This document shows positions 102-22,461 of a stretch of 22,461 nt of DNA, one piece after another; position 1 is the stretch's first letter; every line of letters begins with the position of its first letter. The stretch comes from a virus, in IMG/VR virus record IMGVR_UViG_3300013101_000113, positions 1-22,461 of that record; one strand, 5' to 3'. Made by a program: the position numbers and the translations under genes. Below the pieces are notes generated by a model. That model had not been told where the DNA came from, made no database searches, and saw only the letters and a program-made list of their open reading frames with translations.

Positions 102-141
102 ATACAAGAAAACTCAACGTTTCTCTTGACTTTTCTTGTAT
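102..141. repeat. Imperfect inverted repeat, possible operator or stem-loop
   Basis: The arms atacaagaaaa (102-112) and ttttcttgtat (131-141) are perfect 11-base reverse complements. After one C-C mismatch (113/130) the pairing resumes with tcaa (114-117) and ttga (126-129), leaving an 8-base loop. The right arm contains the -35 box of the candidate promoter at 126-153, so a bound protein or a cruciform could affect that promoter. It could also act as a weak terminator for the gene ending at 80, though the stem is AT-rich and no clean T-run follows. Confidence 0.55.
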
Positions 142-153
142 TCATGGTATGAT
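126..153 (+). promoter_or_regulatory. Candidate sigma70 promoter upstream of the capsid gene
   Basis: TTGACT (126-131, five of six consensus bases) is followed after 16 bases by TATGAT (148-153, five of six). TG at 145-146 gives an extended -10 (TGgTATGAT). Transcription would start near 160 and leave a leader of about 170 nt before the capsid ATG at 330. The -35 lies inside the right arm of the inverted repeat at 102-141. The call is by pattern alone. Confidence 0.5.
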
Positions 154-159
154 AAAGTA

Positions 160-329
160 TTGGTTACAGCAGTGCCAACAATACCCTATTTTTAAACCTT
201 ATTGACAGAAGTCGATAAGTCTCTTCAAGCAGAAGCCTAGAGAGTAAAATTTTACGATATTAAACACATCGGGATTTTGCTTTCACAAATTCTCCCGATT
301 TATTTTTTTTTAATCAAGGAGAATCCACA
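160..329 (+). ncRNA. Long capsid-gene leader, or a short terminated RNA of about 150 nt
   Basis: The stretch between the candidate start point (~160) and the capsid ATG has no convincing ORF. It contains a perfect 12-base palindrome, gtaaaattttac (244-255), a small hairpin cttc/gaag (223-226 with 232-235), and the terminator at 268-311. If the terminator works, transcripts from the promoter would mostly end as an RNA of about 150 nt. If it is bypassed, the same stretch is the capsid mRNA leader. No known riboswitch or RNA family is recognised. Confidence 0.25.
268..311 (+). terminator. Intrinsic terminator (attenuator-like) immediately before the capsid RBS
   Basis: atcggga (268-274) pairs perfectly with tcccgat (293-299). 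An inner four-pair stem (276-279 with 286-289) closes a 6-base loop. Nine Ts follow at 303-311. The capsid ribosome binding site aaggag (316-321) comes only four bases after the T-run, leaving no room for a promoter between terminator and gene. The capsid must therefore be made by readthrough, regulated antitermination, or with the hairpin acting as an mRNA stabiliser or processing site. Confidence 0.75.
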
Positions 330-12551: not shown

Positions 12552-12973
12552 TGATAATAGATAATGTTATTGAAGAGGCCAGATCGTATTTAGGAACTAC
12601 TTGGGTTCATCAAGGACGATCCAGAAGAGGGGTTGATTGCGTAGGTTTTCTTCTGCTTTCATTTATGACATCTGGAATAAAATTAAATGATTCAAGAGGG
12701 TATGCAAGAAAACCTGATGGAATTATGTTAAAGAAAATGATGGATGGTCAGAAGAGTTTTATGACTGTTGGTAAAAATGACATAAAAGCTGGAGATGTTT
12801 TGTTGTTTAGGATACGTCATGATCCTCAACATGTCGGTCTAGTAGTGCCTAGCAAAACTGCAAAGTTTGGTATGATTCACTCATATAATGGTGGAGAAAA
12901 GAAAGTTGTTGAGCATGATTTAGCTGATTACTGGATCAAAAAAATAGTTGCTGTTTATAGGCTGATAGAGTAA
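12551..12973 (+). CDS. NlpC/P60 tail peptidase, GTA g14-like
   Basis: A 140-residue papain-like hydrolase of the phage NlpC/P60 type. The catalytic Cys is at residue 30 in GVDCVGFLL, the His at 94 in HDPQHVGLVV, and the third polar residue is probably His110 in GMIHSYNGG. The DIKAGDVLLFRI segment (about 77-88) is a family hallmark. The enzyme probably cleaves peptide cross-links of peptidoglycan during DNA entry and sits in the baseplate. The gene lies between hub and g15-like gene exactly as in the GTA. Its ATG overlaps the hub stop by one base, and its own stop overlaps the next ATG the same way. Confidence 0.93.
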   Translation: MIIDNVIEEARSYLGTTWVHQGRSRRGVDCVGFLLLSFMTSGIKLNDSRGYARKPDGIMLKKMMDGQKSFMTVGKNDIKAGDVLLFRIRHDPQHVGLVVPSKTAKFGMIHSYNGGEKKVVEHDLADYWIKKIVAVYRLIE

Positions 12974-15900
12974 TGGCAGTTGCGGCGGTAGGATTAGTAG
13001 GTGCGGCTGTAGGCTGGGGAGCTTTTACTGTTGGAGTAATAGGTGCAACTACTTTAGCGACAGCTGTTCAAGTTGGGTGGATAGCTGGCACCTTGTTGGG
13101 TACTTTGCTATTCGCAAAAGAGAACATCATAGAGCAATCAGGGCCAAGGCTAGGAGATTTAGATACTCAAACTGCTAAATGGGGAACTTCTATACCTAGG
13201 CTATTTGGATCATTTAAACTTGCAGGAAATGTTATATGGTCTTTACCATTGCATGAAACAAAGCATGTTGATGAATCAGGAGAAGGAAAAGGACAAGGAG
13301 GAACAAAGACATCATCAACTTGGTATTCGTATGCTGGTTCATGGGCTGTTGCATTTTGCGAAGGAACTATTGAAGGTGTAAAAAGAATATGGTTTGATTC
13401 TGTTTTGGTTTATGATGGTGTGAACTATCATGGAGGATTGGATTACGATAACTATAATGTGCACAAAGGAACTGGGAATCAAAGCGTTGATTGGTTTATA
13501 CAATCAAAAGACGAAGACACTCCTGCTTACAGAAATGTTGTTTATATAGTTTTCAGAAAGATAGAGCTTGAGAATTATGGGAATAGAGTTCCAAATGTAA
13601 GTGTCGAATTAGTGGAGAAAGGTGATTTTCCACCACCTAGATTTATAGATAAAACTATATTTAAGAATACTCCAGATTTGGATATGAATAAGTACTCTGC
13701 CACTTTATATGCAGGAAAGGGTGGGGTTGCTTATGTTCATCCCGGATTAAAGATGAGTTTGCAATCTCATGGAAAGGCTGTCATAAGCTCTCAGTATCCT
13801 CCAAGAGAAGATGACGATGATTTAGGTGAATTCACAGAGTATAGATATTTCTCGCTGAAAGGTCAGGAGAAGTTTCCACTTCCAGAAAAACCAGAAATCT
13901 TGGAGCCAGAATATAACATAGAATCCGCAAGAGTCTATTACACAGAAAGGTTTGAATATGTGCTATTGGTAGGAGGTGGAGGATATCAATATTTGGTGAT
14001 TCCTCCAGTAGAGAATTCTCCTGATAACGATGCAAGAGTTATTATAGATGATGAAAACATTCACGATATTGCTCCATATGATGATGGATTGCTACAGCTA
14101 AATACTAATGATGAGATTATAATACTTGATTCGAATTTTATTGAAGTAAGAACTGTAAGTCTAAATTGGAATGACAAAAAACCAAAGATGACTACAAATG
14201 TCTTTGAAAGAACTAGAATAACAAATGTTGATAATGGAGTTGTTTACATAGCGGCAAGCAGTTCTGAGTTCATAGATTCTATAGGTTGGTTATTCTATAA
14301 AACTAATCTTGATGATGGAAACGTAGAGTATCTAGGAGAGTTTAGGGATACTGATAACATAAATTTCACAAACTCCAGTCAAGCTACGTCTATAATAATC
14401 AAGAATGCTATTGCAAATATATCTCAAGCTTCTGTAACTTATTCATATTATTATGTTGATTTATCTCCATTTGACAAACTTTCTGTTCCTATCAGCAGTG
14501 TGTGTAGTGACGTATTACTAAGGGCTGGTTTAAAGGAAGATGAGTTTGACGTTTCTGATGGAGTGGAGTTGATTAGTGGATATGTAATAACAAAATCTAT
14601 GTCAGCTAGAGCAGCGTTGCTTCCAATCACCACTGCTTATCAATATGACATGACTGAAATAGATAGTGTGATTAGGTTATTAAAGCGTGGATATGATAGC
14701 TTAGTGCAGATAAACATGAGCGAGGAAAGTGTTGGAGATGTTTCTGTCAAGAGAACTCAGGAGGTTGAGTTAAGCAAACAGATCAATGTTCAATATGCAA
14801 ACGAATCAAATGATTATCAATACGGATTGCAAGTAGCTCAGAGAATAGATAGAAATGCAGATGGTATAAGAAATTATCAGTTTAACATGGCTTTGACTGA
14901 TGACAAGGCAAAGCAGATAGCTGAGATAATATTATTCAATGAATGGAACGAAACTCTAACTTTTGAATTCATGCTATCAAGAGATTACGAGTATCTTAAA
15001 CCTGCTGATGTAATAACATTATTATATGACGGAAGTAATTACAATGTTAGGGTGACAGATATAGCATTCAATACTGATAGTTCTATCTCTATTAAATCGA
15101 CAATAGAGAATGGAGAGGTCTATGAGTCTTTTGCAGAAGGGAGCAACACAAACAACAGTGGTCTTACTCAAGACAAAGTTGATTTAATTGGTATTACGTA
15201 TATGTATGTTTTAGACATACCAACTCTTGATAGTCAGTTAGATTTTCCAAGTTTATACATAGCTGTTAGAGGTGCTTTTTCAGGATGGAAAGGTTGTGAA
15301 GTTCATAAATCGAGAGACAATGTTGATTACTCCAGAGTAATAGGTGGTCTACAAAACACTATAATGGGCTACACACTAACTGAATTGCAGACTGGTGTAT
15401 CTCATATTTTTGATAGAGCAAGTGTTGTTACGGTAATTGTCATAGACGAATCTTTATATTCAGTAACAAAAGAGATTCTTCTTTCTGGAGAGAACTATGT
15501 TCTTATCGGTAATGAGATATTGCAATATCAAGATGCTATTGATAATGGTGACAACACTTTTACATTAAGAAATTTCCTAAGAGGAAGGAGAGGTACTGAA
15601 TGGGCAATTACGACTCATGAATTGAATGATAGATTTGTCTTTTTGGATACTACCTTGTTAGCTGACATAGATGTAACGATAAGCTCAAAGACTTATTACA
15701 AAGCGACCACTTTGGGTCATTTTGTTGAAGATTCATCCCCTATAGAAATAACACCTGAGCTTGTATCAAAAATGCCTTTTTCTGTTGAATACATAAGGTG
15801 TCAAAGCGAAGACAATGATGACAAAACAATTCAATGGATGAGAAGATCAAGAGAAGTATCAGGATACATGAGAACACTATCACTGTTCGAAAGTTTTGAG

Positions 15901-16098
15901 AGATATCAAATCGATATTTACGATGATGCTCATGTAGATGTTGTTGCTACAAAAACAATTGATGAAGCTCAAGAATATTTTTACCCAGCATCAAATCAGA
16001 CGTCTGATGGGATAACGCCTGGATTGCCAATGAAGATAATGATATATCAAATGTCGGATTTTGTTGGACGTGGATATGGAAAAGAGGCTATTTTATAA
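12973..16098 (+). CDS. Giant tail-tip protein, GTA g15-like, paralog 1 of 3
   Basis: A 1041-residue protein. Residues 4-47 are a hydrophobic Gly/Ala-rich segment. Residues 56-215 are a conserved tail-tip domain (GPRLGDLDTQTAKWGTSIPR, LFGSFKLAGNVIW, WAVAFCEGTIEGVKRIWFDS, DTPAYRNVVYIVF, NRVPNVSVELVE). Residues about 220-500 are a variable beta-rich middle, propeller-like by eye. From about 505 a second conserved region starts (SSVCSDVLLRAGL, ISGYVITKSMSARAALLPIT, LKPADVITLLYDG) like the Phage-tail_3/g15 C-terminal half. It then has NYVLIGNEILQYQDAIDNGD and LRNFLRGRRGTEW near 840-877. In GTA g15, this region contacts the hub and host-recognition parts. The TIM-barrel segment of g15 is not recognisable. 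Start overlaps the peptidase stop by one base. Confidence 0.85.
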   Translation: MAVAAVGLVGAAVGWGAFTVGVIGATTLATAVQVGWIAGTLLGTLLFAKENIIEQSGPRLGDLDTQTAKWGTSIPRLFGSFKLAGNVIWSLPLHETKHVDESGEGKGQGGTKTSSTWYSYAGSWAVAFCEGTIEGVKRIWFDSVLVYDGVNYHGGLDYDNYNVHKGTGNQSVDWFIQSKDEDTPAYRNVVYIVFRKIELENYGNRVPNVSVELVEKGDFPPPRFIDKTIFKNTPDLDMNKYSATLYAGKGGVAYVHPGLKMSLQSHGKAVISSQYPPREDDDDLGEFTEYRYFSLKGQEKFPLPEKPEILEPEYNIESARVYYTERFEYVLLVGGGGYQYLVIPPVENSPDNDARVIIDDENIHDIAPYDDGLLQLNTNDEIIILDSNFIEVRTVSLNWNDKKPKMTTNVFERTRITNVDNGVVYIAASSSEFIDSIGWLFYKTNLDDGNVEYLGEFRDTDNINFTNSSQATSIIIKNAIANISQASVTYSYYYVDLSPFDKLSVPISSVCSDVLLRAGLKEDEFDVSDGVELISGYVITKSMSARAALLPITTAYQYDMTEIDSVIRLLKRGYDSLVQINMSEESVGDVSVKRTQEVELSKQINVQYANESNDYQYGLQVAQRIDRNADGIRNYQFNMALTDDKAKQIAEIILFNEWNETLTFEFMLSRDYEYLKPADVITLLYDGSNYNVRVTDIAFNTDSSISIKSTIENGEVYESFAEGSNTNNSGLTQDKVDLIGITYMYVLDIPTLDSQLDFPSLYIAVRGAFSGWKGCEVHKSRDNVDYSRVIGGLQNTIMGYTLTELQTGVSHIFDRASVVTVIVIDESLYSVTKEILLSGENYVLIGNEILQYQDAIDNGDNTFTLRNFLRGRRGTEWAITTHELNDRFVFLDTTLLADIDVTISSKTYYKATTLGHFVEDSSPIEITPELVSKMPFSVEYIRCQSEDNDDKTIQWMRRSREVSGYMRTLSLFESFERYQIDIYDDAHVDVVATKTIDEAQEYFYPASNQTSDGITPGLPMKIMIYQMSDFVGRGYGKEAIL

Positions 16099-19000
16099 TG
16101 TCAGGTAATTCTATAGGAACAATTGTAGGAGCGGCGATAGGATTACTTGTTCCAGTTATAGGGCCAGGTTTAGGCGCTTCCATTGGTGGTGCAGTAGGAG
16201 GGATGCTACTGCCTGATAAACTAGGCATTCAAGATCAGAATGGGCCAAGGCTTAATGATCTAAGCGTTACTAGTGCATCATATGGTGCAACTATTCCTAA
16301 GACTTATGGTGCATACAGAATATCTGGAAATGTTATTTGGACTGAGGGTATAAGGGAAGTAAAACACGTAAGAGAGGAAGAGGTAGGCAAAGGAAGTGAG
16401 ACGTATGATGTAACATGGTTTACATATTCTGTCGATATAGCTATAGGGATATGTGAAGGGGAAATCCATAACATAAGCAAGGTATGGGCAGATTCTATTC
16501 TGATATGGGACGCCAACACTGGTGGTTTTACTACATCTATAGTAGATCAGGATGAAGCATCCGGTAATATGTCTATTTATACAGGAAGGCAAGACCAAAA
16601 ACCAGATTGGTTGATGCAAAAATCAGAACCAGACACACCAGCATACAGAAATGTTGCTTATGTTGTTTTCAACAACCTACAGCTAGAAGTGTTTAAAAAT
16701 CGCATACCTAATTTTACATTTGAAGTGAACAGTCAGGCTCCGCCAGAAGCTCTTCCTATGATACTTGGAGGGCATTCCACAATTGAGGGGTTTGATATAA
16801 CAGACCCCGGCATAAGAAACTATGATCCTATACTTCCTGTTAAAGCTAGTGCTGTTAATGGAGTTATAAACTCAGTTAAGTTTGTTGGTGCATATGATTT
16901 GCCTGTTGGAGATGTGACTCCAAGGATAACCCAAGGCTGGGCTGAGTATCATATATTTCAGGATGATCAAGTAAGAAGACAAGCTCCAATAGCAGATTAT
17001 GAAGGAATGGCGGCAGATGATCAGTTCAATCAAATTCCTTCGGCCGGCTCTAAAGGATGGACTCAAGAAGATAAGCTTAGTTCTACATTAAATTTCATAG
17101 GAACTGTGTATGATTTTGGAGATTGGGGAGGCACTTCTCACCAATTGATAGGGCTAGGTATTTTTGCTAATCCATATGGAGGAAGGCAGATAAGAACGCT
17201 TCCATCTAAGATAGTTGAAAGACACGGTTCTCTGTATGCAATGGCAGATACTATGCTTGTAGACGGCATTGCAGGTACAACTAATAGGATAAATGTTCAA
17301 AAAATAATAAAATACTCATATCCACCTGTTACAGTTCAGACAAAAAAAGGCTCTAGCTCTCCGCCAGTCAGTCCTGAATATGAATGTTATGTCACTTATG
17401 CTGGCACAGAAGACACGGCAAGAGGGAAGTTTATAAACCCAGATCATCTACCATGTTCAGAAATACATTTGGAGGATGACTTTGTTCCTGATTTAGTGTA
17501 CGATTTTACTAGACCTATTCAAGACATTTTTGATGTTTCAGAATACACCAACATTGATAAAAACAATAATGGGCGATATGATTTTTTTGTTGGCATAGAT
17601 AACATATACTTTATAGAAACATATAATATGTATGATGATGGACCGTTGTTTATAACAATGGATCTTGATGGTAATGTGACAGACCAAAGAATACTAAAAC
17701 ACCCTATGTTTTCATCTAATATGAGAGCGGATTTAATAGTCCATAGAACTGATGCAATAGTTTATTTAGTAATTGATTATTTATCGAGACATGATTCTTA
17801 TAATGTGTGGTCTAAAGCAGTATTTGAAATTAATACCTTTGATGATTACAGGATTGATTATTTAGGATATACGTATGTGCCAGACAGATATGACTGGTAT
17901 TGTTTCACTTTTGCAGGCACTCCGTATTTAGACATAATCGACGGTAGATTTTATATGTCTCAGTTAGAGATGTATAGTCGATCAGATAGTGGATGGCCTA
18001 ATGGGCAAAAATGGCTAGGTGCTGGAATATGGTCTTTATACTCTGCATCTTATGAAGGCATTCCATTATCTGAGATAATAATTGATTTGCTTGTTAGAGG
18101 TGGAATAGACGAAAGCGTTATAGAAGCCGGTGAAGCTGCGAGTACTACTGTAAAAGGGTTTTTAGTTGCAAAACAAATGTCAACAAGATCGGCTATAGCA
18201 GAACTTCAAAAAACTTATTTGTTTGATCTTATTGAGCAAGATTTCGGTTTTGTGGTCAGGATGAGAGGAGATTTTCTTTCAGTAGGCACAATAAGTCATC
18301 AAGATGTTAGTGGTGTGATAGAGATTGCAACCACTATAGATACTGAAATTCCAAGAAAAGTTACTTTGAGGTATCCAAATAAGAATACTGATTATCAAGC
18401 AGGATCACAGACAGCAATAAGAATAGATGGAAACAGTGATAATAATGTTGTGATTGAAACTGTTGTTGTTTTTACTGATGATGAGGCGAAACAATTAGCA
18501 GAAAAATTATTGTATTCTTCTTGGGGCGGGAAGTCTACTATAAAACTTTCTATACCTTTTACAAATAAATATTCCGTAGCTGATATAGTTACTATTGTTG
18601 ATGTCACTGTTACATATAATGCAAGAATAGTGAAAATAAATTATTCTGACAACCATCTTATGCAGGTTGATTTGGTTGTCGAAGACACATCTAGTTATAC
18701 GTCTAATGCAGAAGGTTCAAGCACTGATGATGGATTCTTAACAAATAGACCAGATGATATATCTAATACATATCTCGAAGTATTCAACGCTCCACATTTG
18801 ATCAATAATTTGATAAAATCAAGAGGGATTTATTATGGTGCAGAAGGATACGGGGATTTATGGAGAGGTTGTGAGGTTTTTAAATCAAAGAACTCAGGTC
18901 AAACCTATCAATCGGTAGGGGCAATACTTGATGCATCTGTTATTGGTCAAGTATCTCCAGCTTTGAAATATCACAAATCTGCTGTATGGGATACCACTAG

Positions 19001-19661
19001 TGTGTTGAATGTATTTGTTGGCGATGATGTATTGTATAGTGTTTCACAGGAAGAAATAAACAATGGCACTGCAAATTTAGCATTGGTTGGGAAAGAAGTC
19101 ATTCAATTTAAAGATGTTATAGAGAAAGAATACGGTGTGTATGAACTTACAAATTTGATAAGAGGATTACAAGGCACTGAAAACGCAGCTGGAGAGCATG
19201 AAGATTTTGAATTATTTGTAATGCTCAATCTTGATTTAGGGTTTTCTTTTTCCACGTTAGATTTGGAAAGAAAGTATGTTGCAGCGTCCTTTGGGAAACT
19301 TGTAGATTATAATGGTGCTATCGATAGGACATATGATGGCACTAACCTAAAACCTCTTTCTCCAACAAGACTCAATAGTGTGTTGATGCCTAATGGCGAT
19401 AAAGAAATAACTTGGAACAGAAGAGACCGATATGTGAGGTATAGCTTTAATACGTCACCATTTTCTGAGACTTCTGAAATATACAAACTTGAGTTTTTGG
19501 CATCAGGTGTGATTGTTAGAGAGGAAGAGATATATTCCGATTACACTTTTCTATACACAGTTTCAATGCAATCAACTGACGGTAATGTTGATTTAATCAG
19601 AGCTTATCAATTTTCTGATGATATTTTTAAGGCTGGTGAATATTCGGAGATAACTATCTAA
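16098..19661 (+). CDS. Giant tail-tip protein, GTA g15-like, paralog 2 of 3
   Basis: A 1187-residue paralog of the preceding protein. It opens with a glycine-zipper segment (IGTIVGAAIGLLVPVIGPGL, residues 6-25, and GGAVGGMLLP), then the conserved domain at 49-210 (GPRLNDLSVTSASYGATIPK, NRIPNFTFEV). The variable middle runs from about 212 to 650, the longest of the three, rich in Tyr, Trp and Asp, beta-strand-like, without similarity by eye to the middles of the other two. The conserved second half starts at about 655 (LSEIIIDLLVRGGI, VAKQMSTRSAIAELQ) and carries NLALVGKEVIQFKDVIEKEY then LIRGLQGTENAAGEHED near residues 993-1035. Expected role is in the baseplate or receptor recognition. The start is TAATG with the preceding gene's stop, and agagg lies ten bases upstream. 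Confidence 0.85.
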   Translation: MSGNSIGTIVGAAIGLLVPVIGPGLGASIGGAVGGMLLPDKLGIQDQNGPRLNDLSVTSASYGATIPKTYGAYRISGNVIWTEGIREVKHVREEEVGKGSETYDVTWFTYSVDIAIGICEGEIHNISKVWADSILIWDANTGGFTTSIVDQDEASGNMSIYTGRQDQKPDWLMQKSEPDTPAYRNVAYVVFNNLQLEVFKNRIPNFTFEVNSQAPPEALPMILGGHSTIEGFDITDPGIRNYDPILPVKASAVNGVINSVKFVGAYDLPVGDVTPRITQGWAEYHIFQDDQVRRQAPIADYEGMAADDQFNQIPSAGSKGWTQEDKLSSTLNFIGTVYDFGDWGGTSHQLIGLGIFANPYGGRQIRTLPSKIVERHGSLYAMADTMLVDGIAGTTNRINVQKIIKYSYPPVTVQTKKGSSSPPVSPEYECYVTYAGTEDTARGKFINPDHLPCSEIHLEDDFVPDLVYDFTRPIQDIFDVSEYTNIDKNNNGRYDFFVGIDNIYFIETYNMYDDGPLFITMDLDGNVTDQRILKHPMFSSNMRADLIVHRTDAIVYLVIDYLSRHDSYNVWSKAVFEINTFDDYRIDYLGYTYVPDRYDWYCFTFAGTPYLDIIDGRFYMSQLEMYSRSDSGWPNGQKWLGAGIWSLYSASYEGIPLSEIIIDLLVRGGIDESVIEAGEAASTTVKGFLVAKQMSTRSAIAELQKTYLFDLIEQDFGFVVRMRGDFLSVGTISHQDVSGVIEIATTIDTEIPRKVTLRYPNKNTDYQAGSQTAIRIDGNSDNNVVIETVVVFTDDEAKQLAEKLLYSSWGGKSTIKLSIPFTNKYSVADIVTIVDVTVTYNARIVKINYSDNHLMQVDLVVEDTSSYTSNAEGSSTDDGFLTNRPDDISNTYLEVFNAPHLINNLIKSRGIYYGAEGYGDLWRGCEVFKSKNSGQTYQSVGAILDASVIGQVSPALKYHKSAVWDTTSVLNVFVGDDVLYSVSQEEINNGTANLALVGKEVIQFKDVIEKEYGVYELTNLIRGLQGTENAAGEHEDFELFVMLNLDLGFSFSTLDLERKYVAASFGKLVDYNGAIDRTYDGTNLKPLSPTRLNSVLMPNGDKEITWNRRDRYVRYSFNTSPFSETSEIYKLEFLASGVIVREEEIYSDYTFLYTVSMQSTDGNVDLIRAYQFSDDIFKAGEYSEITI

Positions 19662-22461
19662 TGGGAACAGCAGCGTTTGGTGCAATAGGATCAGCAATAG
19701 GTGGTGAGGTAGCAGGAGCTTTTGGTTCTCAGTTAGGTTGGGTTGCTGGAACGCTAGTAGGAACCTACTTGTTTGCTCCTCCCGGTCCTGATTTAGTACA
19801 AGAGGGGACTAGACTTGATGATTTAAAAGTGACATCGTCCACTTATGGAGCTAGTGTTCCTAAGCTTTTTGGATCTTATAGACTATCTGGCAACGTTATA
19901 TGGGCCAAAAAGATTCGCGAAACCAAACATGAAGAGAGTCAAGATTCAGGAAAAGGATTAGATGGTGGAACATCTACTACGATATGGTACACATATGATG
20001 CAACATGGGCCGTTGCTTTCTGTGAAGGTCCGATAGACGGCATTAGAAAAATATGGTTTGATTCAATTCTTGTTTATGAAAATGGAAAGTCTGAGATAGG
20101 CGATAGAATAACAATCTACAATGGAACTGATGATCAAGAAGTTGATTGGGTGATACAGTCAGACAGAGAGGACAACCCTGCTTACAGAAATATCGTTTAT
20201 GTTGTTTTTAATGAGGTTAAGCTTAAGAAGTATGGTGATAGGATACCTAATGTTACTTGCGAAGCTGTAATAGGATCAAGCAATGAAAGAGACGTTTATC
20301 ATACTGTCACTGGAGAGATAAATTTCTCAGACACTCTTTCTGAGATAATGGGAATTGATTTTGACGCAGGTGTAAACAAGGATTTTGTGTTTAACAGTCC
20401 ATCAAATTCTATGTTTTTTGTTGCCACAAGAACAGATCCAGTGACAAGATTGATCACAGATTCTGTTTTGGCAAAAGTAAATGTAGAAGGCCGCATTGTT
20501 TTTTATAAGATAATTAAGCCTCAGAAGTATGAGTATTCTATAGGAGATGGTGGATTAGTTTTATGGTCTGATAATGCCAATGTTTCTGCTGATTTTTTTG
20601 TTTATGACGACCAATTGGATTTAATATCCAGTCAGACTCTTTTGTATTACAACATTGATACCGATACTTATTGGGCTGGAGGTGAAGGGTTTTTTGTTTC
20701 AAAGGTTGCCTATACTGATAAAAAACTTATTTGGATGGTGAGGGATTACACAACTCAATTTGCTGGTGGGATTTATGTAAATGGAGATAAAGTCATTGAT
20801 GGTGCTGATTTAACTGATATATATCCAAGAAACGGATTATCTGCCATTGGAGGAAAGATAGTTTTATTTTCTGACAGAGCATTTGCGCAGGTAGGTGATG
20901 AGTATAAGATAAGAGTTTATGAGACAACTGGCGATCTTGATTTTGAGATGGATTATAAAAAATACAAGTACTCAGAGATACTTTCCATAAACAATGCAAC
21001 AACTCAGTTTAAGCCAACGGAAAATGGGATTATAGTTGCTTGTTCTTTTGGTTGGGATAATGGTAGACATCATTGGTTAATTGACACAAATGATGCTGAT
21101 GCTTTTGAATATCTAGGTGCTAATAAACCATCTGGAGATGAAGGGTATGGCGATGCAAAAGGTGGATTTTATTCAAGCAACATAAATTATATTCTCGATA
21201 GCACTTGGGGAGTTGTTTTAGCAAATACATCGGCATTGCTTACTAGTCAAGGAATAAGATTATCTGACTTATGCTATGGTTTATTGATAGAGTCTGGTCT
21301 TGATGATGTTGATTTGGATATGACAGAAGGGAAAGATACTATTGTTTCTGGATATGTCGTTTCCAAGAATATGCCTGCAAGAACGGCCATTGAACCTGTG
21401 TTATCTGCATATGAATTTACGCTTGTTGAAATAAACTCTACAATGAAGCTTAGAGAGCAAAATCAGATATCCTTAGCAAACATACCAGAGGATGATTTAG
21501 GCGCAGATGGCAACAATAAGATGGAGTACAACTCATCTCAAGAAATGGATTTACTGAAAAGCTTAACAATAAAGTTCTCTAACAGAGACTCTGATTATCA
21601 AACAGGCGTTCAAAGTGTAAGAAGAATCGACACTGATGCTACAACAGAAAGAGTTATGGAGCTTCCACTAGCTTTATCTGATAAAGAGGCAAAAGAATTA
21701 GCTGAAAAGAATTTGTATAAAAATTGGCTTATGAGGCAGTCTTATAAATTTGTAGTTCCGTATAAATATCGCTACTTAATACCTGGCGATGTTGTTACTG
21801 TTAGTTTTGATGGATATGTAAAAGATGTAAGATTAACAAAGATAATTTTCACTGACGACTTTCTTGTTGAATGCAATGGAATAGCAAATAATTATGGTGT
21901 ATATAATTCTGATGCAGAAGCTGATAGCACTGGAGAGAATGGTGGAGAGTTAGATTTAACGTCTTTCAGCACATACAATAACATTTTAGATGCTCCTACA
22001 CTGAATAATAAATATGTCAATGTTGAAGGTGTTTATTCTGGATTGTATTCGTTTTCAGATAACTGGAAAGGTGGCGTTCTAATGTCTAAGTCATTAGAGC
22101 TTGATAATTTCGCAATAAACTATACAACTTTTGAAGATATGCCAAGTGGTGTATCGAGTTCTTCTTTGCCAGATGCAAGTACTGATGTATGGGATAGGGT
22201 AAATGTATTAAAAGTTTATTCTAGCGGAATTTTGGAATCAAAAACAGAAGAGCAATTATTAGCTGGAGAAAACTATATACTTTTAGGTAGAGAGGTGTTA
22301 CAATATGCTAACGCCACTGAAATATCTTTGGGAATATACGAGTTAGATACATTGCTTAGGGGCAGGCTTGGAACTGAGTTTGAAACTGGTAGTCATTCAG
22401 GACAAGAGGTTTTTGCGTATCTGGATAGAAATGCTCTGTATTTTACATCAAAGCCAATGAA
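19661..22461 (+). CDS. Giant tail-tip protein, GTA g15-like, paralog 3 of 3 (3' end outside window)
   Basis: An open frame starts at ATG 19661, overlapping the previous stop by one base, and runs 933 codons to the window edge without a stop. The N-terminus has a Gly-rich hydrophobic segment (GAIGSAIGGEVAGAFGSQLG). The conserved domain follows at 49-205 (GTRLDDLKVTSSTYGASVPK, LFGSYRLSGNVIW, NPAYRNIVYVVFNE, GDRIPNVTCEAV). The variable middle is at about 210-530 (beta-rich; the segment IYVNGDKVIDGADLTDIYPR lies inside it). The conserved second half begins about 532 (IRLSDLCYGLLIESGL, VSKNMPARTAIEPVL, YLIPGDVVTVSF) and includes ENYILLGREVLQY ... LLRGRLGTEFETGSH near 869-915. By comparison with paralogs 1 and 2, about 145-150 residues (roughly 440 bases) remain beyond the window. 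Partial because of the window edge, not because of a mutation. Confidence 0.85.
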   Translation, partial: MGTAAFGAIGSAIGGEVAGAFGSQLGWVAGTLVGTYLFAPPGPDLVQEGTRLDDLKVTSSTYGASVPKLFGSYRLSGNVIWAKKIRETKHEESQDSGKGLDGGTSTTIWYTYDATWAVAFCEGPIDGIRKIWFDSILVYENGKSEIGDRITIYNGTDDQEVDWVIQSDREDNPAYRNIVYVVFNEVKLKKYGDRIPNVTCEAVIGSSNERDVYHTVTGEINFSDTLSEIMGIDFDAGVNKDFVFNSPSNSMFFVATRTDPVTRLITDSVLAKVNVEGRIVFYKIIKPQKYEYSIGDGGLVLWSDNANVSADFFVYDDQLDLISSQTLLYYNIDTDTYWAGGEGFFVSKVAYTDKKLIWMVRDYTTQFAGGIYVNGDKVIDGADLTDIYPRNGLSAIGGKIVLFSDRAFAQVGDEYKIRVYETTGDLDFEMDYKKYKYSEILSINNATTQFKPTENGIIVACSFGWDNGRHHWLIDTNDADAFEYLGANKPSGDEGYGDAKGGFYSSNINYILDSTWGVVLANTSALLTSQGIRLSDLCYGLLIESGLDDVDLDMTEGKDTIVSGYVVSKNMPARTAIEPVLSAYEFTLVEINSTMKLREQNQISLANIPEDDLGADGNNKMEYNSSQEMDLLKSLTIKFSNRDSDYQTGVQSVRRIDTDATTERVMELPLALSDKEAKELAEKNLYKNWLMRQSYKFVVPYKYRYLIPGDVVTVSFDGYVKDVRLTKIIFTDDFLVECNGIANNYGVYNSDAEADSTGENGGELDLTSFSTYNNILDAPTLNNKYVNVEGVYSGLYSFSDNWKGGVLMSKSLELDNFAINYTTFEDMPSGVSSSSLPDASTDVWDRVNVLKVYSSGILESKTEEQLLAGENYILLGREVLQYANATEISLGIYELDTLLRGRLGTEFETGSHSGQEVFAYLDRNALYFTSKPM

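Follow-up and report, generated by a model that had tools for sequence, protein, structure and literature searches.

A predicted RNA switch in the leader of a phage major capsid gene and its relatives in uncultivated phages

In attenuators such as amino-acid operon leaders, LicT/BglG RAT sites, and T-box leaders, one strand of the RNA serves either an antiterminator hairpin or a terminator. In translational riboswitches and ribosomal-protein leaders, an anti-Shine-Dalgarno strand either pairs with the Shine-Dalgarno sequence (SD) or sits in another hairpin. Among phages, the put RNA of HK022 has two hairpins directly after a promoter with terminators downstream, the coat operators of RNA phages set the synthesis of a structural protein through a small, internally bulged hairpin whose loop is short, and the autoregulation known from P22 scaffold concerns the scaffold gene. 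No phage protein is made in larger amounts than the major capsid protein, and assembly is sensitive to its dosage relative to scaffold. To our knowledge, RNA-level control of the major capsid protein in tailed phages has hardly been described.

Here, we analyze the leader of a P22-type major capsid gene, for which the best reading is a new attenuator-like leader family of the phage major capsid gene. We give a probability of about 0.6 to a reading in which this leader works in cis as an RNA switch for the capsid gene, with two shapes that exclude each other. The same general design recurs in leaders of more than 60 related uncultivated phages, an indication that RNA folding switches shell-protein production. 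A structured leader conserved across dozens of such phages would amount to a new class of regulatory RNA for which the gene is identifiable, the two-state model can be tested, and a phage-specific binding partner is likely.

The capsid gene and its leader in the window

The window, meaning the whole stretch of DNA analyzed here, spans an entire virus record (22,461 bases, G+C 37%) and represents that part of an uncultivated, siphophage-like genome in which the structural genes lie. Its genes include those for connector proteins, a tail tube, a tape measure, and the tail tip, in addition to the gene whose leader concerns us.

330 to 1466, + strand: major capsid gene, P22-type (PHROG 283, Pfam P22_CoatProtein)

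Two further features of the gene content were recorded. Positions 1770 to 1913 encode a basic protein of 47 amino acids (MSITIVEKNGKDYYRWGDKGKLYPTKEKALRQGRAIKSHSRNKKNGA) that belongs to PHROG 31267, of unknown function, and locus L076 shows a frame like it at its start. Three adjacent large tail-tip proteins (12973 to 16098, 16098 to 19661, and 19661 to 22459) have similar N-termini and look like paralogues, the second of them matching Phage-tail_3 and Rcc01698_C.

No isolate phage with a close capsid was found among 50,697 phage records, where the best tblastn matches were 23% to 31% identical, and the capsid of a related metagenome clade gave no closer matches as a query against phage records. 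The phage collection thus yielded no cultivated phage of this capsid family. Single-protein capsid scans of viral contigs and of genome contigs recovered no close relative, nor did a scan of genome contigs with a capsid alignment (A3) recover any relative. Nine distant phage capsids proved too divergent among themselves to make a usable search profile. The route to relatives led from the tail-tube protein to loci L076 to L078, from the partial capsid of L077 to the two-row alignment A3, from A3 to L159 and others, and from a further alignment, A4, to 80 capsid loci. The nearest relatives found are L159 (IMGVR_UViG_3300033143_004170, the same contig as L250), with a capsid 77% identical to that of the window, and L253, with a capsid 59% identical. 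These two and the window, three leaders only, can be aligned with one another and are referred to here as the window clade.

The upstream part of the leader contains two overlapping DNA elements.

102 to 141, no strand assigned: inverted repeat with 16-nt arms (102 to 117 and 126 to 141), 15 of 16 (94%) complementary, arms 8 nt apart
126 to 153, + strand: predicted sigma-70-type promoter, TTGACT-N16-TATGAT with extended TG, 10 of 12 matches

A preliminary description of this DNA had named both, as a 15-bp imperfect inverted repeat over the -35 box and as a TTGACT/TATGAT promoter with an extended TG, and both are present. The repeat, whose right arm contains the -35 box, is operator-like and lies upstream of the expected transcription start; it is the best in the 22,461-base window, with a score reached in only 1 of 60 whole-window dinucleotide shuffles. 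A 7-bp version occupies the same place in L159, and none was seen in L253. The promoter (TTGACT at 126 to 131, a 16-nt spacer, and TATGAT at 148 to 153) is ordinary as a single match, with 72 promoter-like sites found in the window versus 71.8 expected, and the same layout is repeated in the nearest relatives (TTGACT-16-TACAAT in L250, 10 of 12; TTGACA-17-TATAAT in L253, 12 of 12).

Downstream of the promoter, the RNA from 157 to 345 folds at -44.8 kcal/mol versus a shuffle mean of -27.1 (z = -4.83), a value equaled by none of 200 shuffles. The elements of its 5' half are as follows.

157 to 184, + strand: hairpin H1, predicted to fold, loop C-AGCA-G
198 to 219, + strand: hairpin H2, predicted to fold with 9 bp and with compensatory pairs among relatives, loop C-AGAA-G
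220 to 243, + strand: hairpin H3, 5-bp outer stem, internal loop, and 2-bp inner stem, loop C-AGAA-G
244 to 255, + strand: palindrome gtaaaattttac, at chance level

All three hairpins have a C-AGNA-G loop, and three such hairpins occurred in 0 of 1000 shuffles of the window leader. L250 has two of them (0 of 1000 shuffles) and L253 has one (P = 0.055). The palindrome is present as previously described but is not significant, since the window contains 7 palindromes of 12 nt versus 7.2 expected, and on its own it is therefore attributable to chance. Two further readings were rejected, guanidine-II-like loop-loop kissing because the leader loops are mostly not self-complementary, and CsrA-type GGA sites because the loops mostly lack GGA.

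The 3' half of the leader holds a terminator-like hairpin, the strands that compete for it, and the SD of the capsid gene.

240 to 250, + strand: strand 1, GAGAGTAAAAT, which can serve the H3 5' arm as partner or pair with loop strand 274 to 284 (11 contiguous pairs)
255 to 258, + strand: CGAT, which can pair with ATCG at 268 to 271 and so lengthen the helix 240-250:274-284
268 to 299, + strand: terminator-like hairpin, ATCGGGA (268 to 274) with TCCCGAT (293 to 299), 18-nt loop
274 to 284, + strand: strand 2', in the loop of hairpin 268-299, partner of 240 to 250
289 to 300, + strand: 3' arm and anti-SD strand, ATTCTCC (289 to 295) with GGAGAAT (318 to 324) and GATT (297 to 300) with AATC (312 to 315)
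303 to 311, + strand: nine-T tract, present in neither L159 nor L253
316 to 321, + strand: SD of the capsid gene, AAGGAG, four bases after the T-tract, with the ATG at 330

Hairpin 268-299 is followed by TTATTTTTTTTT and has the form of a GC-containing hairpin with an immediate T-run. The intrinsic terminator that had been proposed here, with nine T ending four bases before the capsid ribosome-binding site, is thus present, although its loop is long and its terminator score is moderate (8.1 by a purpose-made score, just below our counting cut of 9). A standard terminator scan omits it because its loop is 18 nt long. A DNA pattern of hairpin, T-tract, and SD also matched three viral contigs, none of them bearing on capsid genes, and these matches were taken as coincidence. 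In one of them, the prophage-like contig L068 (2500 to 2760), TCCCGATTTATTTTTTAATTTCAAGGAG stands in the leader of a host adhE gene at the contig's edge and coincidentally resembles the T-tract and SD of the window.

The loop of hairpin 268-299 can pair with 240 to 250 and its 3' arm can pair with the SD, so that the leader could act as a two-state relay. The earlier list of leader elements had their positions right to within a base but overlooked these competing partners. The predicted fold of 153 to 345 does not contain the terminator and instead pairs 268 to 284 with 240 to 250 (plus 255 to 258) and covers the SD through 289-300:312-324; within it, the helices that compete for the terminator strand are 240-250:274-284 and 255-258:268-271. 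The 3' arm of H3 overlaps strand 240-250, and H3 is possible only while that strand is not used by the loop of hairpin 268-299. The predicted relay thus has three linked choices: H3 or 240-250:274-284, hairpin 268-299 or 240-258:268-284, and an SD that is free or covered by 289 to 300.

Conservation in the window clade and the wider capsid family

The preliminary description had proposed alignment of relatives to look for covariation in the 268-299 stem. This alignment shows a stem that is identical in L159 and, in L253, changed on both sides in a compensatory manner at 4 of 7 pairs. H2 and H3 also have compensatory pairs among the window-clade leaders, and forcing hairpin 268-299 produces the same H3 in the window, L250, and L253 (five outer pairs, an internal loop, two inner pairs, and a terminal loop of 3 to 4 nt). 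The T-run after the hairpin is found in the window only, being absent in L159 (TTTAAACCTAAATTAGGAG) and L253 (ACATAAGGAG). Since both nearest relatives lack the nine-T tract, termination is not what the window clade conserves; the shared design would be exposure or covering of the SD, with termination as an addition in the window. The sequences thus indicate that SD exposure, not termination, is the predicted output common to this clade. For the same reason, we disfavor the free RNA of about 150 nt ending at 311 that had been listed as one option for this leader.

L159 and L253 could form the relay as well. Contiguous pairing between the loop strand and the upstream strand extends over 11 pairs in the window (P = 0.004), 9 in L250 (P = 0.245), and 8 in L253 (P = 0.038), and that between the 3' arm and the SD over 7 (P = 0.065), 6 (P = 0.326), and 8 (P = 0.025), respectively; in a family-wide test of SD occlusion, the P value for the window is 0.13. 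Individual P values vary, so the case for these pairings lies in the agreement of the three leaders and in none of them singly, and in the closest pair, the window and L250, the pairings are weaker than their appearance suggests, as the two values for L250 indicate.

For the wider family, 3 of the 80 loci from A4 (L211, L234, and L258) were dropped for want of a capsid start, giving 78 leaders with the window, and removal of 11 near-identical duplicates left 67, from which L182, L206, and L242 (too short) and L244 (wrong start) were removed to give 63. Shuffle nulls preserve dinucleotides and ignore relatedness, and thinning at 60% capsid identity was applied to folding and hairpin counts only. 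A fold z below -2 was found for 51 of the 63 leaders (mean -3.75) versus 4 of 63 capsid-coding stretches of equal length from the same loci (mean -0.42), and for 14 of 19 clusters after thinning. Small hairpins with a triloop closed by a Y-G pair (C-G or U-G) number 103 in the 63 leaders versus 19.9 (sd 4.0) in shuffles. At least two of them occur in 46 leaders versus 2.7 expected (14 of 19 thinned clusters versus 1.1), and the identical triloop occurs twice in 23 leaders versus 0.03 expected (7 of 19 clusters versus 0.02). A short word, TCGGCCA, was noticed about 60 to 100 nt before the capsid, after two triloop hairpins, in L208, L214, L224, L229, L247, and L259.

Terminator-like hairpins lie within 80 nt upstream of the capsid ATG in 30 of the 63 leaders, versus a shuffle mean of 1.35 and maximum of 4; a terminator score of at least 8 is reached in 32 (2.1 in shuffles), and promoters with at least 10 of 12 matches are present in 31 (6.65 in shuffles), all three counts being set against the shuffle null only and uncorrected for relatedness among leaders. 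A terminator before a capsid gene, seemingly paradoxical, is therefore a recurrent arrangement. SD occlusion at P ≤ 0.05 was seen in 18 of the 63. The 3' arm of a triloop hairpin overlaps the 5' arm of the terminator in 10 of the 30 terminator leaders, compared with 2.7 by random placement.

The sharing of strands is clearest in A8, an alignment of 19 related capsid-family leaders. In its first and second triloop hairpins, 94.3% of cells are paired and 8 of 13 pairs carry double changes; in its terminator helix, which precedes a T-rich stretch in many of the sequences, 98.7% of cells are paired and 3 of 8 pairs carry double changes. Both helices exceed 500 of 500 column shuffles, in cells paired and in covariation score, as well as all slid controls. 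Five alignment columns are common to a triloop hairpin and the terminator helix, and both structures can form in 18 of the 19 sequences. Column 49 changes together with its partners in columns 37 and 92, with A-U-A/G in 13 sequences and G-C-G in 5. In A8, an antiterminator-like hairpin and a terminator, each predicted from sequence, share a strand and both covary. Attenuation or antitermination, one of the options first put forward for the window, is supported by these patterns as a class for the capsid-family leaders: 30 of 63 have the terminator-like hairpin and A8 has the shared strand, although the T-tract is absent from both nearest relatives of the window.

A covariance model of A8 (R1) was searched in 63 sources, comprising the window and most, not all, of the family loci. 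It matched 23 of them at E < 0.01, of which 19 are training sequences, always on the + strand and in the leader. In whole records, for which 27 of the longer ones were picked, 18 had one strong match each, those compared by coordinates sitting in the capsid leader, and the only other full-length + strand match was weak (21 bits). A cmsearch of the window leader with R1 gave no match at E ≤ 1, and the Y-G triloop hairpins are, by the same criterion, absent from the window, L250, and L253, whose own hairpins have four-base loops. Since the window has no triloops, no R1 match, and a terminator score of 8.1 against the cut of 9, its membership in the wider family rests on its capsid and on general layout.

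A two-state model and its alternatives

In the mechanism that we propose, the promoter at 126 to 153 would give an RNA starting at a probable position near 160, in which H1, H2, and H3, with their matching loops, would be probable factor-binding sites, followed by the strand-exchange relay. In state A, pairing of 240 to 250 with 274 to 284 would block hairpin 268-299, so that transcription would not terminate, and anti-SD strand 289 to 300 would cover the SD. In state B, H3 would take up 240 to 243, hairpin 268-299 would form, and the SD would be free; should state B arise before RNA polymerase has left the T-tract, transcription could end instead. State A is the predicted default, as forcing hairpin 268-299 costs 5.3 kcal/mol in the window, 9.4 in L250, and 8.0 in L253, by which amounts state A is better when pseudoknots are ignored. 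State A would also form first and let the polymerase pass, because 240 to 250 and its loop partner are made before the 3' arm, which would cover the SD after the polymerase has passed. Stabilization of H3 would then release the loop strand, so that hairpin 268-299 could form and the SD would be exposed. Most likely, the capsid gene would be transcribed but locked, and a factor favoring H3, coded by the phage and perhaps an assembly protein, would unlock it. The structure, its conservation, the exclusive pairings, and the covariation are read from the sequences, whereas we infer the start site, the trigger, and the direction of the switch; state B in the window might end transcription instead of activating.

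Elsewhere in the family, a sensor of this kind would be coupled to a real terminator, and the last triloop hairpin would act as the antiterminator. Because the triloop hairpin in A8 opposes the terminator, the sign of control is not transferable between branches. Loops that match within a leader and differ between phages suggest a phage-specific binding partner, for which the 47-amino-acid basic protein is a conceivable candidate. We hold only tentatively, as possible but doubtful, the fuller proposal that in a widespread family the loop-matched hairpins, two or three per leader, would be read by an RNA-binding protein specific to the phage, whether coat, scaffold, or a small basic late protein, so that assembly state or infection phase would set capsid synthesis through a terminator or SD occlusion depending on the branch.

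It is unlikely that hairpin 268-299 is a plain terminator, there to keep leaky transcription out of the capsid gene until RNA polymerase is modified by a Q-like or N-like antitermination factor of the phage. The 30 of 63 leaders with a terminator-like hairpin before the capsid would fit this explanation, as would a second hairpin after the capsid gene.

1479 to 1527, + strand: hairpin GTGGCTTG/CAAGCCAC with seven T, predicted to fold, terminator score 11.75

This second hairpin directly precedes the SD (1528 to 1531) of the gene after the capsid, so that both window hairpins lie directly before an SD, and terminator-like hairpins within 130 nt after the capsid occur in 20 of 61 family loci versus 0 to 2 in shuffles (two of the 63 leaders were excluded because less than 130 nt follows the capsid). 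The capsid gene therefore looks like its own transcription unit. The same order of hairpin, T-run, and SD was also observed in L071 and L077. A plain terminator, however, does not account for L159 and L253, which keep hairpin 268-299 but not the T-tract, and it leaves the anti-SD complementarity and the competing helices unexplained.

Somewhat less likely still is a static leader, in which the hairpins protect the 5' end of the mRNA and the U-rich tract aids ribosome binding through S1, with no switching. Distant capsid loci resembling that of the Xanthomonas phage PBR31 (L061 and L079 to L158; 56 of 80 loci after removal of duplicates and truncated starts) are in its favor, since a GC hairpin and a T-run stand before the capsid SD in 14 of 56 versus 0.7 in shuffles, which also means that a terminator before the capsid SD is not unique to the window family. 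These leaders are more weakly structured (mean z of -1.57, 16 of 56 under -2), and in those listed with the hairpin the upstream frame ends only a short distance away. In a static leader, the exclusive helices of A8 with their shared covarying strands would be purposeless, and the window clade does not conserve the U-tract.

Processive antitermination of the put or nut type, with tandem hairpins that let RNA polymerase pass the terminators before and after the capsid, is quite improbable. The order of the elements, with two or three similar hairpins that immediately follow a promoter and lie upstream of terminators, would suit it, but R1 finds one strong copy per record, located in the capsid leader where coordinates were compared and not at other promoters, and in 10 of 30 terminator leaders, versus 2.7 expected, the terminator and the last hairpin have a strand in common, which points to local attenuation. 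Least probable of all is a set of unrelated pieces, in which the promoter has an operator dyad, the terminator is an ordinary one, and the complementarity to the SD, a purine-rich sequence, arose by chance. Although the palindrome is at chance and SD complementarity in the window alone has a P of 0.065 to 0.13, strong folding, conservation, and covariation over many phages speak against it and the family-wide counts contradict it.

Comparison with described regulatory RNAs

Searches against Rfam 15 gave no match at the gathering score in sets of 14 and 19 family loci, and positions 1 to 1500 of the window gave only sub-threshold eukaryotic matches attributable to chance. The open literature on capsid leaders, attenuators, and structured phage RNAs yielded no description of such a leader, which is weak evidence of absence as subscription papers lie mostly outside it.

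The capsid loci of the PBR31-like podophages resemble the window in having a GC hairpin and T-run immediately before the capsid SD, and differ from the window family in their short gap and weaker structure. The likeness to HK022 put is that hairpins come right after a promoter with terminators downstream, whereas the leader is a single capsid-specific copy whose platform covers the SD or shares the terminator strand. H3, a candidate binding site only, resembles the coat operators of RNA phages in its small size, internal bulge, and short loop. Unlike the target of P22 autoregulation, the gene that follows the leader is that of the capsid and not the scaffold. With translational riboswitches and ribosomal-protein leaders, the window clade would share a predicted anti-SD strand with two exclusive partners; unlike those of translational riboswitches, the leader loops differ between phages and often match within one leader, with no Rfam family and no known ligand. 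The closest likeness in design is to attenuators, in that the mutually exclusive helices of the A8 leaders share one strand, as shown by covariation. Unlike attenuators, these leaders would control a phage major capsid gene through a sensor of two or three small loop-matched hairpins, with no leader peptide or known ligand, and in the window clade the predicted conserved output is exposure of the SD rather than termination.
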